From contig JAPLOZ010000028.1 in assembly GCA_026400435.1 (NCBI GenBank), forward strand, positions 1 through 63,697: DNA of 63,697 bases, in the 5' to 3' direction. A model generated the notes under the pieces. It did not search any database. It was not told the DNA's origin and saw only the letters and a list, made by a program, of their open reading frames with translations. Numbering within the stretch: position 1 is the first letter of the stretch; the number at the start of each line of letters is the position of its first letter. This DNA is from Hyphomicrobiales bacterium (GTDB lineage: Bacteria > Pseudomonadota > Alphaproteobacteria > Rhizobiales > Rhizobiaceae). Made by a program: the position numbers and the translations under genes. Shown one piece after another: positions 32,046-36,890 of this stretch.

Positions 32046-32210
32046 TCAAGCGCGTCGGAAGAATCCGGCGAGCAGCGAGATGACCAGGAATGCCAGAAAG
32101 ACGAAAAACAGGATCTGTGCGATGCCCGCGGATGTCCCGGCTATGCCGCCAAAGCCGAGAGCGCCGGCGATGATGGCGACGACAAGAAAAACAAGCGCCC
32201 AATAAAGCAT
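32046..32210 (-). CDS. DUF1328 small membrane protein
   Basis: A 54-residue protein, MLYWALVFLVVAIIAGALGF followed by GGIAGTSAGIAQILFFVFLA and FLVISLLAGFFRRA. It has two membrane segments and the glycine-rich turn typical of the DUF1328 (YtjA) family. The start at 32210 has an AAGGAG site seven bases upstream. A sigma-EcfG promoter (GGAAC-N16-CGTT, 32241-32265) lies directly upstream, so it should be induced by general stress. Its role is unknown; related small proteins are stress-induced in other rhizobia. Confidence 0.9.
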   Translation of the reverse strand: MLYWALVFLVVAIIAGALGFGGIAGTSAGIAQILFFVFLAFLVISLLAGFFRRA

Positions 32211-32240
32211 TGTCAAACTCCTTGAATTGGCTGTCTGGAG

Positions 32241-32265
32241 AACGACGCAACAACCCGTTTGTTCC
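32241..32265 (-). promoter_or_regulatory. Sigma-EcfG promoter of the DUF1328 gene
   Basis: On the minus strand GGAAC (32265-32261), 16 bases, then CGTT (32244-32241). Matches the established EcfG consensus GGAAC-N16/17-CGTT exactly, and ends 31 bases before the start codon. Confidence 0.88.
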
Positions 32266-32322
32266 GCTATCCAAAATGAAAAGGCCGCCATGTGGCGGCC
32301 CTTTCGTAACAGAGTCACGGCG

Positions 32323-33117
32323 CTAGGCAGCAACTTTCGCCTGTCGATCGAAGAACAGCGCCTGAGAGATTAGCGCCTTCACCATGTCGGGATTGAACGG
32401 CTTGGTGACGAGGAACGCCGGCTCCGGACGTTCGCCAGTCAGCAGCCGCTCCGGAAATGCCGTGATGAAGATGACCGGCAAGGAGGTCGAATTCAGGATT
32501 TCATTGACGGCGTCGATCCCCGAGCTGCCGTCGGCAAGCTGAATATCCGCCAGGATCATCCTCGGGTGCGAGGTCCTGAACAGCGCCGTCGCCTCGGTGT
32601 GGGTGCGGGCAGTCCCGACGACGCGGTGGCCGAGACTTTCGACCATCTGCTCGATGTCCATGGCGATTAGCGGCTCGTCCTCGATAATGAGAATGTCGGT
32701 CGCGACCTGGCGCGAAATCTCACTGCTGGCCTCGGCGAGAAGATCGGCGAACGCGCCATCCGTCTTGTCAAGGATTTCTGCCGCCTGCGCATGCGAGAAT
32801 CCCTCGACGGCAATGAGCAGGAAAGCCTGCCGCGGCAATGGCGCAAGCGCGCCCAGGTTGGCCGCGGTCCGTTGCTCCCACGCACTGGGCGCCTGCTCAT
32901 GAGGCACCCGTATCGACACCGAGGTAAACAGGCTGGCGAAAAGCTTGTAGAGCGCGATGCGATCGCTGGAAGCCTCTGGAAAGATGCTGGTGTCAGCGAT
33001 AATTGCCTCAAGCATCGCCGCCACGAGCGCATCGCCGCTATGCTGAGAACCGGACACTGCCCGCGAAAACCTTCTTAGAAATGGCAAATGTGGCGCAATC
33101 GTTGCGGATAGACTCAT
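32323..33117 (-). CDS. phyR: General stress response regulator PhyR
   Basis: Master switch of the alphaproteobacterial general stress response: when phosphorylated it binds NepR and frees EcfG. Residues 1 to about 135 form a sigma-factor-like domain (LYKLFASLFTSVSIRVPHEQ; LAPLPRQAFLLIAVEGFSHAQAAEILD), and about 140-260 a receiver with ILIIEDEPLIAMDIEQMVES, acceptor Asp in MILADIQLADGSSG, Thr/Ser in PVIFITAFPE and Lys in FLVTKPFNPD. Length 264 is standard. The start MSLSATIAPHLPFLRRFSRA at 33117 is typical; the longer frame is noncoding. A sigma-EcfG promoter lies 59 bases upstream, giving positive feedback. It is divergent from nepR-ecfG. Confidence 0.96.
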   Translation of the reverse strand: MSLSATIAPHLPFLRRFSRAVSGSQHSGDALVAAMLEAIIADTSIFPEASSDRIALYKLFASLFTSVSIRVPHEQAPSAWEQRTAANLGALAPLPRQAFLLIAVEGFSHAQAAEILDKTDGAFADLLAEASSEISRQVATDILIIEDEPLIAMDIEQMVESLGHRVVGTARTHTEATALFRTSHPRMILADIQLADGSSGIDAVNEILNSTSLPVIFITAFPERLLTGERPEPAFLVTKPFNPDMVKALISQALFFDRQAKVAA

Positions 33118-33175
33118 TGTTACCGTCTCCCTCAAATGACGTATCGAGCGATTAAATTGGAAACCCGTGTGCAAC

Positions 33176-33200
33176 AACGCGACCTGGAATGAAAGGTTCC
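33176..33200 (-). promoter_or_regulatory. Sigma-EcfG promoter of phyR
   Basis: On the minus strand GGAAC (33200-33196), 16 bases, CGTT (33179-33176). It stands back to back with the nepR promoter; the two -35 elements are 19 bases apart. Confidence 0.9.
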
Positions 33201-33219
33201 AAAAAAAACCAGCGGCCAT

Positions 33220-33244
33220 GGAACCAAACGAAGAAGCGCGCGTT
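33220..33244 (+). promoter_or_regulatory. Sigma-EcfG promoter of nepR-ecfG
   Basis: GGAAC at 33220-33224, 16 bases, CGTT at 33241-33244, 84 bases before the nepR ATG. Implies autoregulation of the anti-sigma/sigma pair. Confidence 0.9.
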
Positions 33245-35006: not shown

Positions 35007-35459
35007 ATGCTGGCTTCGCTGATCGCAGGTCTGGCGTCTGGCGAGACGGCGTTGGCCATCCGCAGGGCGCGCGTGGCGGCGATCGCATATGTGTTGGCCG
35101 GCATGGCCGGCATCTGCGGCCTCGGCTTCCTGCTTGGCGCCTTCTTTATGTGGCTTGCCCGCCGCCTTGGCCCCATCGAGGCCGCCTTGTGGATCGGCGG
35201 CGGCTTCATTGTAGTGGCCGTCGCCATTCTTGTGATCCATCGCGTAGTGGCCGGCGCCAGGGCGCGCCAGGCAGCCGAGCGGCGCAAATCCGATATGGCG
35301 GCAGTCGGGATCGCGGCCGCCCTCGCGGTATTGCCGGGCCTGCTGCGTAGCCGGGCCGGCATCGGCGCTCTGGTCGTGCCGGCTCTCGCGGTGATCGGGT
35401 ATGCGATCTATCGCGAAAACACCCGCCCCAAACCCGATCCAGGATCGACCGAACAGTAG
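35007..35459 (+). CDS. Holin-like/DUF1469-type membrane protein
   Basis: A 150-residue membrane protein with helices at about 25-50 (VAAIAYVLAGMAGICGLGFLLGAFFMWLA), 57-78 (IEAALWIGGGFIVVAVAILVIHRVV) and two weaker ones near 97-110 and 118-135. The pattern and position after a DUF883 gene fit the phage-holin superfamily / DUF1469 (YqjE-like) proteins, which accompany YqjD in enterobacteria. No lysis role is implied. Probably co-transcribed from the sigma-EcfG promoter at 34627. Confidence 0.8.
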   Translation: MLASLIAGLASGETALAIRRARVAAIAYVLAGMAGICGLGFLLGAFFMWLARRLGPIEAALWIGGGFIVVAVAILVIHRVVAGARARQAAERRKSDMAAVGIAAALAVLPGLLRSRAGIGALVVPALAVIGYAIYRENTRPKPDPGSTEQ

Positions 35460-35484
35460 CCGGGACGTTTCGTCGCCGTTTTGC

Positions 35485-35509
35485 GGAACTCTCAAACCTT
35501 CGATGCATT
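35485..35509 (+). promoter_or_regulatory. Weak candidate sigma-EcfG promoter
   Basis: GGAAC (35485-35489), 16 bases, CATT (35506-35509), one mismatch from consensus in the -10 element, 39 bases before the small membrane protein start. Confidence 0.4.
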
Positions 35510-35548
35510 GGCAAGATCAGGACGCCAAGGGCATTGAAGGGAAAACAT

Positions 35549-35737
35549 ATGGTCGAGCAAATTTCTGCCAACCGGGCAAAGCAGGGCAGGTCGGGAAAGC
35601 GGGTACTGCTTGTTCTGGTGATCGGGCTGGCGCTGGCTGCCATCGCCTGGTTCGGACTCGAGTTTTACGGCGAATCCATCGCTACGCAGAGCGCCACGCA
35701 ACCTGGCGCAACTGAGACGCCAGCCACAGCCCACTGA
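35549..35737 (+). CDS. Small single-pass membrane protein
   Basis: A 62-residue protein: a basic N-terminus (MVEQISANRAKQGRSGKR), one membrane helix (VLLVLVIGLALAAIAWFGLEFYG) and a Thr/Ala-rich tail that would lie in the periplasm. Start at 35549 chosen for the GAAGGGAAAA site; a TTG at 35534 is in frame. No family recognised. Because it lies in the run of stress genes and has a near-consensus EcfG promoter, membership in that regulon is plausible. Confidence 0.65.
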   Translation: MVEQISANRAKQGRSGKRVLLVLVIGLALAAIAWFGLEFYGESIATQSATQPGATETPATAH

Positions 35738-35859
35738 CTTTGGCGAGACATTAGCGGAGGGCTGCCATGGGCCGAGCCCGGCTCATATCAGCACGATCTA
35801 AATAACGGAAATCACAGCACAATTTTGGATATGCCGCTGGTTGTTTCGACTTAAAAATC

Positions 35860-35884
35860 GGAACGTAATTGCTGAAGCGACGTT
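35860..35884 (+). promoter_or_regulatory. Sigma-EcfG promoter of the PRC-barrel gene
   Basis: GGAAC (35860-35864), 16 bases, CGTT (35881-35884), 100 bases before the start codon. Exact consensus. Confidence 0.87.
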
Positions 35885-35984
35885 GTGCTGTTGCGAAGTC
35901 GCGCCGACCCTCCCCCGAAACGAGCAAGGCCGGCGCGACAGAGACATGAAATCATTTGCGAAATCACGACAAGGAGATCTTAAC

Positions 35985-36890
35985 ATGATGCGCAACCTAT
36001 TCGCCAGCACGGCGGTCGCCACCCTCATCGCGTCAGGAGCCTTCGCCCAGGAGGCGACGGCGACCGCTCCCCAGGAACCGGCCATGCAAACACAGGGTGC
36101 GGTTGTGGCGCCCGATGGTCACCTAGCCACGCAGATTATCGGCGAGACCGTCTATAACGGTACCGGGGACGACGCCCAGCACATCGGTGACGTGAACGAC
36201 ATCGTCATCGGCGCCAACGGCAACATCGAGGCCGTCGTGATCGGCGTCGGCGGCTTCCTCGGAATCGGCGAAAAGAACGTCGCCGTCGATTTCGCCCAGC
36301 TCGACTGGGCAGAGAAGGATGGCGATCGCTGGCTGGTCGCTCCGACCACCAAGGAGCAGCTCGAGCAGCAGGCTGCCTTCGACCGTAGCGCCTATGAGCC
36401 GACGCGGGCCGCCGCAGCGACTGATCCGGCCGTAACCGCGCCTGCTGGCCAGGAACCGATGGATCAGGCGGCTCAGAACACCGCCCCCGCCAACCCGGTC
36501 GCGCCGACGGCTGCGACCGACACCACGACCACGGCGGCGATCGACAGGTCGACGCTCAAGGAAATGCCGGCTGCCGAAATGCGCGCCGAGGATCTTGTCG
36601 GTACGACCGTCTATGGTGCTGACGACGCGAATGTCGGCGAAATCGGCGATGTCCTTCTGACCGCCGACGGCAAGATCGACGCCTATCTCGTCGATGTCGG
36701 CGGCTTCCTCGGAATTGGCGAAAAGGAAGTCGCGATCGGCAGCGACAACTTGGCCTTCATGGCCGACAAGGACGGCAACAAGTACCTGTACACGACCTTC
36801 ACCAAGGAGCAGCTCGACGCCGCTGCTGCTTATGACAAGGGTACCTATGCCGAGAAGCGTGACACGCAGCGCGTGATCACCACCCAGTAA
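35985..36890 (+). CDS. Secreted protein with two PRC-barrel domains
   Basis: A 301-residue exported protein. Signal peptide about 1-21 (MMRNLFASTAVATLIASGAFA). Two PRC-barrel units share near-identical centres: GDVNDIVIGANGNIEAVVIGVGGFLGIGEKNVAVDF in the first (about 60-100) and GDVLLTADGKIDAYLVDVGGFLGIGEKEVAIG in the second (about 220-255). Each is followed by a Thr/Pro-rich or TKEQL segment. The AAGGAGATCT site fixes the start at 35985. PRC-barrel proteins bind other proteins or RNA, and rhizobial periplasmic members are commonly desiccation- or osmotic-stress-induced. The EcfG promoter upstream supports this. Confidence 0.9.
   Translation: MMRNLFASTAVATLIASGAFAQEATATAPQEPAMQTQGAVVAPDGHLATQIIGETVYNGTGDDAQHIGDVNDIVIGANGNIEAVVIGVGGFLGIGEKNVAVDFAQLDWAEKDGDRWLVAPTTKEQLEQQAAFDRSAYEPTRAAAATDPAVTAPAGQEPMDQAAQNTAPANPVAPTAATDTTTTAAIDRSTLKEMPAAEMRAEDLVGTTVYGADDANVGEIGDVLLTADGKIDAYLVDVGGFLGIGEKEVAIGSDNLAFMADKDGNKYLYTTFTKEQLDAAAAYDKGTYAEKRDTQRVITTQ

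Follow-up and report, generated by a model that had tools for sequence, protein, structure and literature searches.

Does a locus that carries the genes of a general stress switch, phyR, nepR and ecfG, also carry several of the genes that this switch controls? The question was raised by a preliminary description of a 63,697-nucleotide stretch of DNA from a Hyphomicrobiales bacterium (the whole of it is called the window below), in which copies of one promoter motif were seen packed around the three switch genes. We are highly confident that this is a general-stress locus of the known PhyR-NepR-EcfG kind, where five exact and two variant EcfG-type promoters precede phyR, nepR-ecfG and five neighbouring units, which are predicted from the sequence to be switched on jointly by EcfG under stress. 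The locus is an ordinary, well-preserved example of known EcfG stress control in a Mesorhizobium-like bacterium. That the switch and several of its outputs probably share one locus under EcfG control, as the description had proposed, is supported on three counts: the sites are conserved in 80 relatives, they are absent there before two neighbouring genes that lack one in the window, and a test of DUF1328 genes across the order agrees. The cluster offers a short set of candidate EcfG outputs that can be put to the test, and several of these are small proteins of families that are also controlled by sigma S in enterobacteria.

The Stress Switch

The gene identities suggested at the outset (PhyR, NepR, an EcfG-type ECF sigma factor, DUF1328, DUF883 and a PRC-barrel protein) are borne out by profile matches. 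The anti-anti-sigma response regulator gene phyR (32323-33117, minus strand) encodes a protein with sigma-like and receiver domains, which matches NCBIfam NF006623 above the cut-off (6.6e-113), the Pfam domains PhyR_sigma2, PhyR_sigma-like and Response_reg, and the solved PhyR 4qic (6e-105). The anti-sigma factor gene nepR (33328-33519, plus strand) was recognized by PF18557 at 2.2e-15 when scanned from the second codon; the NCBIfam NepR model stayed under its cut-off for the product (24.8 vs 100). The ECF sigma factor gene ecfG (33524-34072, plus strand) follows in the same unit, 4 bp further on, with sigma70 regions r2 and r4 and a match to NF009199 above the cut-off. Since NF009199 is named merely RNA polymerase sigma factor, the gene is called EcfG on account of its neighbours and of family resemblance. 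By these matches, the trio is a general-stress switch of the known PhyR-NepR-EcfG kind. As inferred from established knowledge, stress would cause an HWE kinase to phosphorylate PhyR, which in this state would bind NepR and release EcfG, and RNA polymerase carrying EcfG would then read GGAAC-N16-CGTT. The sites before phyR and nepR-ecfG would provide feedback on the switch itself.

Promoter Sites and Their Clustering

A motif scan confirmed all five exact GGAAC-N16-CGTT sites that had been reported, with their positions and strands: before DUF1328 (32241-32265, minus), phyR (33176-33200, minus), nepR-ecfG (33220-33244, plus, 19 bp from the phyR site), DUF883 (34627-34651, plus) and the PRC-barrel gene (35860-35884, plus). 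They are the only exact ones in the window, all lie inside 3.6 kb, and each stands upstream of a gene on that gene's strand, which is the arrangement of an EcfG-type promoter (GGAAC-N16/17-CGTT or GTT upstream, on the strand of the gene). The sixth site, said to carry one mismatch, does so: it reads GGAAC-N16-CATT, with CATT for CGTT, before a small open reading frame (35485-35509, plus). As counted on the sequence, the -10 box and the start codon are separated by 30 bp for DUF1328, 58 bp for phyR, 83 bp for nepR, 28 bp for DUF883, 39 bp for the small frame and 100 bp for the PRC-barrel gene. A seventh site, GGAAC-N17-CGTT (30755-30780, minus), had been overlooked; 32 bp separate its end from the start of a small gene that is split between two frames.

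Under a first-order Markov model (Markov-1), 0.55 exact sites are expected across the window, and a stretch of 3.65 kb should hold 0.03. The probability of at least five in 3.65 kb is 2.5e-10 under this model, or 4.7e-10 if the rate is taken from the genome itself (nominal Poisson), both values being optimistic because the stretch was chosen after the hits were seen; for the whole window it is 2.7e-4. The earlier judgment that a chance origin is very unlikely holds. With one mismatch allowed, the window is not enriched (18 matches, five exact ones included, vs 15.8 expected). Nor does the genome-wide search that had been recommended turn the motif alone into a marker of the regulon: the 3.88-Mb assembly holds 38 exact copies vs 34 for the reversed control, and we rejected this count as proof of a regulon, as it is hardly above the control. 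A crude coding score flagged 15 of the first 30 genomic sites as lying inside an open reading frame, and 4 of those 15 still precede a plausible gene that is read in the same direction. The unusual feature is the clustering of the sites and not the motif itself. Because the motif is barely enriched across the genome, the case rests on clustering and conservation.

Could real promoters of this type be read mainly by another sigma factor, either a different ECF or RpoH acting downstream of EcfG? Eight further ECF-like matches are found in the genome (three with internal stops), a further exact site stands elsewhere in the genome 32 bp before the gene for sigma-32 (RpoH), and RpoE6 of S. meliloti is described as having many targets in common with RpoE2 (PMC6180224). 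However, ecfG is the only close EcfG in the 88%-complete assembly, the next best ECF match being merely 34% identical; the site sequence is the EcfG-type consensus given in PMC6599016 and PMC8103513, and the sites surround ecfG itself. We consider control by another sigma factor very unlikely, and EcfG is taken as the reader of the sites in what follows.

Conservation of the Sites

Exact N16 sites were counted within 350 bp upstream of the orthologues in 80 named relatives, which belong mostly to one genus and so are not independent. The site is present before phyR and before nepR in 74/80 relatives each, before DUF1328 in 72/80 and before DUF883 in 73/78, where the flanks around the kept boxes are poorly conserved. 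For the PRC-barrel gene, open reading frames with an exact site were found in 65 of the 74 loci having a PRC match; just 20/74 were obtained when the count was anchored on starts extrapolated from tblastn, a discrepancy that we put down to a diverging N-terminus, and the figure based on open reading frames is preferred. The small frame occurs in 49/80 relatives, 37 of them with the exact site, and the GGAAC-N16-CAT form recurs before it in seven relatives among those listed. The frame-split small gene has an exact N16 site before its orthologue in 26 of the relatives' loci. In contrast to these, no exact site was seen upstream of the response regulator (0/80) or of the YqjE-like gene (0/78), and the reversed pattern matched 2/757 upstream regions, all genes together. 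The relatives' loci hold 605 exact sites, or 0.46 per kb, compared with the 38 in the 3.88-Mb genome at hand.

In a wider test of DUF1328 genes across the order, 37 of the 90 genes read have an exact site and 83 have one with at most one mismatch. The reversed pattern gave 0 and 12, the opposite strand 2 and 6, and 30 shuffled patterns gave on average 0.4 and 5.9, with maxima of 3 and 23.

These counts bear directly on the view that just the phyR and nepR-ecfG sites are EcfG promoters, those before DUF1328, DUF883 and the PRC-barrel gene being there by chance or as functionless inheritance. The weak genome-wide enrichment of the motif would suit it, but the output sites are conserved in about as large a share of relatives as the core ones, the DUF883 boxes persist amid flanks that do not, and the DUF1328 site is retained in other families of the order even where the 3-kb locus contains no phyR (4 of 9 exact cases, from 30 loci). 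We find this view scarcely credible, and the reading that EcfG controls the outputs as well as the switch is kept below.

The Predicted Outputs and Their Neighbours

Under EcfG control, the remaining sites would raise DUF1328, DUF883 with its YqjE-like partner, the small protein and the PRC-barrel protein, and likewise the frame-split gene, if it is still functional. The outputs probably help the cell to survive by tuning its inner membrane, its ribosome activity and its envelope. Four membrane or exported outputs had been counted; outputs are indeed predicted, but the stretch concerned codes for at least five such proteins, as a YqjE-like gene, which has no site of its own, starts 3 bp behind the end of DUF883. 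Their membrane or exported character is a prediction from reading the sequences by eye. The further remark that the outputs are poorly known is partly right, but two of them have relatives in E. coli. The DUF1328 protein (32046-32210, minus; PF07043 9.5e-16, 58.3 bits vs a cut-off of 27) is 52% identical to YtjA, and the DUF883 protein (34680-35003, plus) falls in the YqjD/ElaB group: its C-terminal part matches PF19029 (1.2e-06, 28.5 vs a cut-off of 27), its N-terminal part stays below the PF05957 cut-off (20.1 vs 25.4), and it is 28% identical to YqjD (E 9e-05).

The YqjE-like gene (35007-35459, plus) is probably on the transcript of DUF883. Its name reflects position and weak resemblance only; membership of the YqjE family was discarded, since the match to Pfam PF07332 (0.012) is below the cut-off (16.1 vs 28.4 bits, with a weak match in 9/16 aligned members), and comparison with E. 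coli YqjE gave no meaningful pairwise match. The 62-residue small protein (35549-35737, plus), a predicted output with one hydrophobic stretch seen by eye, has no Pfam match. The predicted PRC-barrel output (35985-36890, plus; PF05239 9.5e-26) shows, again by eye, two PRC-barrel stretches and a start resembling a signal peptide.

On the far side of phyR lies the frame-split gene (30397-30722, minus; MEHIAALLLV...), whose relatives have a single open frame of about 108 residues; one of them was scanned and had no Pfam match. Next to it is a PAS-HWE sensor histidine kinase (30798-31811, minus; Pfam HWE_HK 4.5e-19), which lacks an exact site in the window, whereas 52/79 relatives have one.

Comparison with Known Systems

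The locus shares its gene trio with the PhyR-NepR-EcfG response of Alphaproteobacteria (RpoE2/RsiA/RsiB in S. meliloti), as well as the layout described in PMC8103513, with nepR-ecfG as one unit, phyR divergent, and EcfG-type promoters before both. It differs in packing several outputs with their own sites right around the switch. PRC-barrel genes under EcfG-type control have been described before. In a table of PMC6180224 that notes 5'-RACE mapping, the S. meliloti PRC-barrel gene SMb20522 has a GGAAC-N16-CGTT promoter, and rpoE5, which is raised by RpoE2 and RpoE5, has GGAAC-N16-CATT. A GGAAC-type motif stands 27 bp before the start of an EcfG-dependent PRC-barrel gene of S. melonis (PMC6599016), and the exact site before the sigma-32 gene noted above has a parallel in S. 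meliloti, where rpoH2 is among the mapped targets of RpoE2 (PMC3616915). On a heat-shock array of M. loti, the PRC-barrel gene mll3685, equated with this locus by locus-tag order and strand and not by sequence, ranks third in the top list, and induction is also seen for the rpoE2 homologue mll3697 (PMC3989490). Within the open-licence literature, no Mesorhizobium EcfG locus appears as the subject, by title or start of abstract, among the matches listed, and RpoE2 is absent from the main text of one paper naming SMc00796, the DUF1328 gene of S. meliloti.

We would add to the known picture that RpoS controls the DUF1328 and DUF883 families in enterobacteria. YtjA is listed among small proteins under tight sigma S control in Salmonella (PMC5437024), and in E. 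coli ytjA adjoins osmY and yqjD is followed by yqjE, much as DUF883 is followed by the YqjE-like gene here; the sigma factor and promoter are, however, unrelated to those of EcfG. If this holds, the same two families have been adopted by two unrelated general stress sigma factors, which would hint that they serve a core function at the membrane or ribosome that merits study.

A single-domain response regulator without a site (34069-34467, minus) adjoins the switch, convergent with ecfG. Its PFIFASGY resembles the FATGUY motif, PFXFATG(G/Y) (PMC5964349), of regulators such as MrrA and SdrG, from which it differs by S in place of T and by lacking an EcfG site. PFxFA[S/T]GY is found in 56/80 relatives' response regulators, 48 with S and 8 with T, and gave no match in 24.

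Geometry of the Divergent Promoters

An UP element is an A/T-rich block upstream of the -35 box, which raises transcription through the alpha subunit. By sequence and position profile, a putative UP-element-like A/T tract (33201-33208) lies 12-19 bp upstream of the nepR -35 box, and a tract at about 12-18 bp is found for phyR, nepR and DUF1328. Such a tract as a general feature of all EcfG promoters in the locus was not borne out, being absent from this position for DUF883, the small frame, the kinase and the PRC-barrel gene. The term "up element" has 0 occurrences among the open-licence matches listed.

The gap between the phyR and nepR promoters is a second difference from known systems: 19 bp in the window, a rare class, vs 6-10 bp in 69/71 measured relatives. 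Favoured gaps are about 9, 19 and 29-32 bp. A tentative model, which we hold to be on the doubtful side, is that both promoters form one back-to-back machine, in which an A/T tract 12-18 bp upstream serves each -35 box. The tract would lie within the spacer of the opposite promoter (gap near 9 bp), be shared at the centre (28-32 bp) or sit beside one -35 box (19 or 39 bp), and whole-turn spacings would be kept so that EcfG polymerase on one side can set the ratio of the switch protein to sigma and anti-sigma factor. How much PhyR is made relative to NepR and EcfG could be probed simply through this geometry.

Strict 10.5-bp helical phasing is only suggestive. When each family and class is represented by one value, entered by hand, 10/13 gaps lie in the expected half of the circle (P 0.046, Rayleigh p about 0.018), and 13/17 do so with gaps over 45 bp included (P 0.025). 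This family-level phasing is weak, the best score of a period scan is at about 21 bp, and gaps of 23, 25, 32 and 54 bp fall off the half circle, all of which speaks for gap classes that reflect descent and a shared A/T tract only, not helical phase. To this simpler account we give somewhat more credence than doubt. It has to face the 19-bp gap in two families and the 39-bp gap in a third, neither expected from a single centred tract, and a nominal genus-level p of 5.5e-6 for 10.5 bp, though that value leans on the large near class and partly hand-picked loci. The T-run that follows GGAAC is unlikely to come from an extended -35 box, because in the 28-32 bp class the phyR spacer is not A/T rich (5, 23, 52, 70 and 41% at positions 1-5), and the upstream tract stays.

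The locus and its EcfG-type promoter sites

Pfam and NCBIfam families identify in the locus a PAS-HWE kinase (30798-31811, minus strand), DUF1328 (32046-32210, minus), phyR (32323-33117, minus; solved PhyR structures were also matched), nepR (33328-33519, plus), ecfG (33524-34072, plus), DUF883 (34680-35003, plus) and a PRC-barrel protein (35985-36890, plus). A single-domain response regulator (34069-34467, minus), which carries PFIFASGY and overlaps the 3' end of ecfG by 4 bp, scores below the Pfam cut-off (20.8 vs 30.2), and the label of the YqjE-like gene (35007-35459, plus) is weak (16.1 bits, cut-off 28.4). 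A small ORF of 62 residues lies at 35549-35737 (plus). Downstream of the kinase is a small gene split across two frames (30397-30722, minus); in relatives it is a single open frame of about 108 residues, and the split could mean a genuine pseudogene or a fault in the assembly. Elsewhere in the window, Rfam matches the alphaproteobacterial sRNA ar35 (62730-62865, plus, 58 bits).

The preliminary description had seen here a stress regulon packed around phyR-nepR-ecfG, a finding which is correct and well supported. The locus illustrates a known system strongly and brings with it extra promoters, a parallel with RpoS and a testable promoter geometry. The five GGAAC-N16-CGTT sites on which the description relied, before DUF1328 (32241-32265, minus), phyR (33176-33200, minus), nepR (33220-33244, plus), DUF883 (34627-34651, plus) and the PRC-barrel gene (35860-35884, plus), are all present, and the window holds no other exact site. 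By chance, 0.03 sites are expected in 3.65 kb, and the probability of at least five is 2.5e-10, or 4.7e-10 using the rate of the bacterium's own genome, for a stretch picked post hoc. With one mismatch allowed, the window has 18 matches vs 15.8 expected. A seventh site of the locus, GGAAC-N17-CGTT (30755-30780, minus), precedes the frame-split gene, whose orthologues have the N16 form upstream in 26 loci.

The same description had suggested a genome-wide motif search. The 3.88-Mb own genome has 38 exact matches vs 34 of the reversed pattern, so the motif alone is a poor marker; 15 of the first 30 sites were flagged as lying within an ORF, and a large share of the 38 is therefore probably due to chance. 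Exact sites do precede further genes, namely those for sigma-32 (RpoH), a BA14K protein, an MgtC protein, an outer-membrane protein, a transglutaminase and two proteins that are DUF883-like by eye (no Pfam hit at 0.01). Two DUF982 genes each have one 36-42 bp upstream, which makes DUF982 a candidate EcfG target family.

Conservation and expression

Conservation was counted as an exact N16 site within 350 bp upstream of the gene, in 80 loci retained from the nearest named relatives (Mesorhizobium and allied genera; PhyR identity 78-88%). Such a site precedes phyR and nepR in 74 of 80 relatives each, DUF1328 in 72/80 and DUF883 in 73/78, the remaining cases being other spacers or single changes; it also precedes the kinase in 52/79 and the small ORF in 37/49. 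For the PRC-barrel gene, the start-anchored count gives 20/74, and an exact site stands ahead of PRC ORFs in 65 loci, all within the 74 having a PRC hit. The reversed pattern matched 2 of 757 upstreams. Altogether the loci hold 605 exact sites in 1.317 Mb, or 0.46 per kb. Within the same 350 bp, no exact site was found before the response regulator (0/80), which adjoins ecfG (≤80 bp) in 70/80 relatives, or the YqjE-like gene (0/78). A Crp-type regulator and a diacylglycerol-kinase-like gene follow exact sites in 39 and 38 loci (identities from a Pfam match of one member each).

Four of the 49 small-ORF upstreams have no site at all. GGAAC-N16-CAT recurs there in seven relatives, so the sixth site of the window (35485-35509), described as a one-mismatch match, is probably a true variant; a published passage gives the S. 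meliloti rpoE5 promoter as GGAAC-N16-CATT (PMC6180224).

Published work also bears on expression. In S. meliloti, RpoE2 promoters precede the transcription starts of rsiA1, rsiB1 and rpoH2 (PMC3616915), and a GGAAC-N16-CGTT promoter is listed for the PRC-barrel gene SMb20522 (PMC6180224); one PRC-barrel gene of S. melonis is EcfG-dependent (PMC6599016). Heat shock in M. loti induced the PRC-barrel gene mll3685 (M 6.08), the transcriptional regulator mll3694 (4.98), mll3692 (4.14) and the rpoE2 homologue mll3697 (2.4) (PMC3989490). Judging from tag order and strand, mll3685-mll3697 would be the orthologous locus.

DUF1328 across the order

DUF1328 is present in 104 of 199 genomes of the order. 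Of 139 places, the 90 with the best scores were read, that of the window among them; 37 carry an exact site (spacer 15-18) no more than 150 bp upstream, and the number rises to 83 when one mismatch is tolerated. The corresponding controls were 0 and 12 for the reversed pattern, 2 and 6 for the opposite strand, and means of 0.4 and 5.9 (maxima 3 and 23) for thirty shuffled patterns. Among 30 loci of 3 kb there were nine exact cases, four of them with no phyR inside the locus. DUF1328 lies within the 3-kb stretch around the phyR promoter pair also in families f42 (L121-L128, on the nepR side and not behind phyR), f6 (L129, L131, L133-L135) and f40 (L136), and the link therefore extends beyond Mesorhizobium. 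In family f11 (L194, L195, L197, L200-L202) it flanks a second divergent EcfG-type pair, whose two sites are 55-59 bp apart; in four of the six loci (L197, L200-L202) the contig also carries the verified phyR pair, about 6.5 kb away from DUF1328.

A parallel with RpoS

Compared with E. coli proteins, DUF1328 shares 52% identity with YtjA and DUF883 28% with YqjD; in that species, yqjD adjoins yqjE and ytjA is next to osmY. YqjD and ElaB are absent without RpoS (PMC6389858), and Salmonella YtjA is given as sigma-S-controlled (PMC5437024). From this likeness and control, the same families appear to serve under two unrelated general stress sigma factors. The passages of the literature consulted do not state such shared control, which is no proof of its absence elsewhere.

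Geometry of the divergent promoters

The autoregulated divergent arrangement of phyR and nepR is already known from published passages (PMC8103513). Both promoters have exact boxes (spacer 15-17) in 72/80 relatives, and the gap between their -35 boxes could be measured in 71: 69 of these have 6-10 bp and two have 19 bp, the value also seen in the window. Pattern searches matched 71 (gaps 0-30) and 37 (gaps 31-60) of 397 genomes of the order, and 16 of 385 in the class (gaps 0-30); part of the matches (30, 15 and 30 loci, plus 20 hand-picked) were checked for an adjacent phyR. Together with the relatives, which supply 67 pairs, the 44 pairs from the searches make 111 distinct ones, and these fall at 5-10 bp (90), 19 bp (3), 23 bp (1) and 28-32 bp (17, ten from one genus), in proportions that are not representative since only part of the matches were fetched and some were hand-picked.

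A second sample was chosen by phyR and not by motif, with 90 of 125 phyR places read and one mismatch allowed per site. Pairs were found in 40 upstreams and none in 50. The gaps were 6-10 bp (24), 19 bp (3; the window and two in another family), 25 bp (1), 29-32 bp (7), 39 bp (1), and 51, 54, 62 and 79 bp (one each). The gap lengths no more than suggest helical phasing, which was sought post hoc: the expected half circle holds 10 of 13 family-level values (P 0.046), or 13 of 17 when the longest gaps are included (P 0.025).

In the 17 pairs with gaps of 28-32 bp, an A/T tract (76-100% A/T) is located upstream of both -35 boxes, at a distance of 12-18 bp. In the 90 pairs at 5-10 bp, this distance coincides with the partner's spacer positions 1-5, which are 84-100% A/T for phyR and 64-93% for nepR. 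In the 28-32 class, A/T content at the same positions is uneven (phyR 5-70%, nepR 11-82%), and thus the tract keeps its distance to the -35 box. The tract is not common to all EcfG promoters of the locus, because those of DUF883, the small ORF, the kinase and PRC lack it (18-65% A/T at 12-18 bp). The DUF1328 promoter is 79-91% A/T at 12-16 bp (69 sequences). The tract may have an UP-element-like role.
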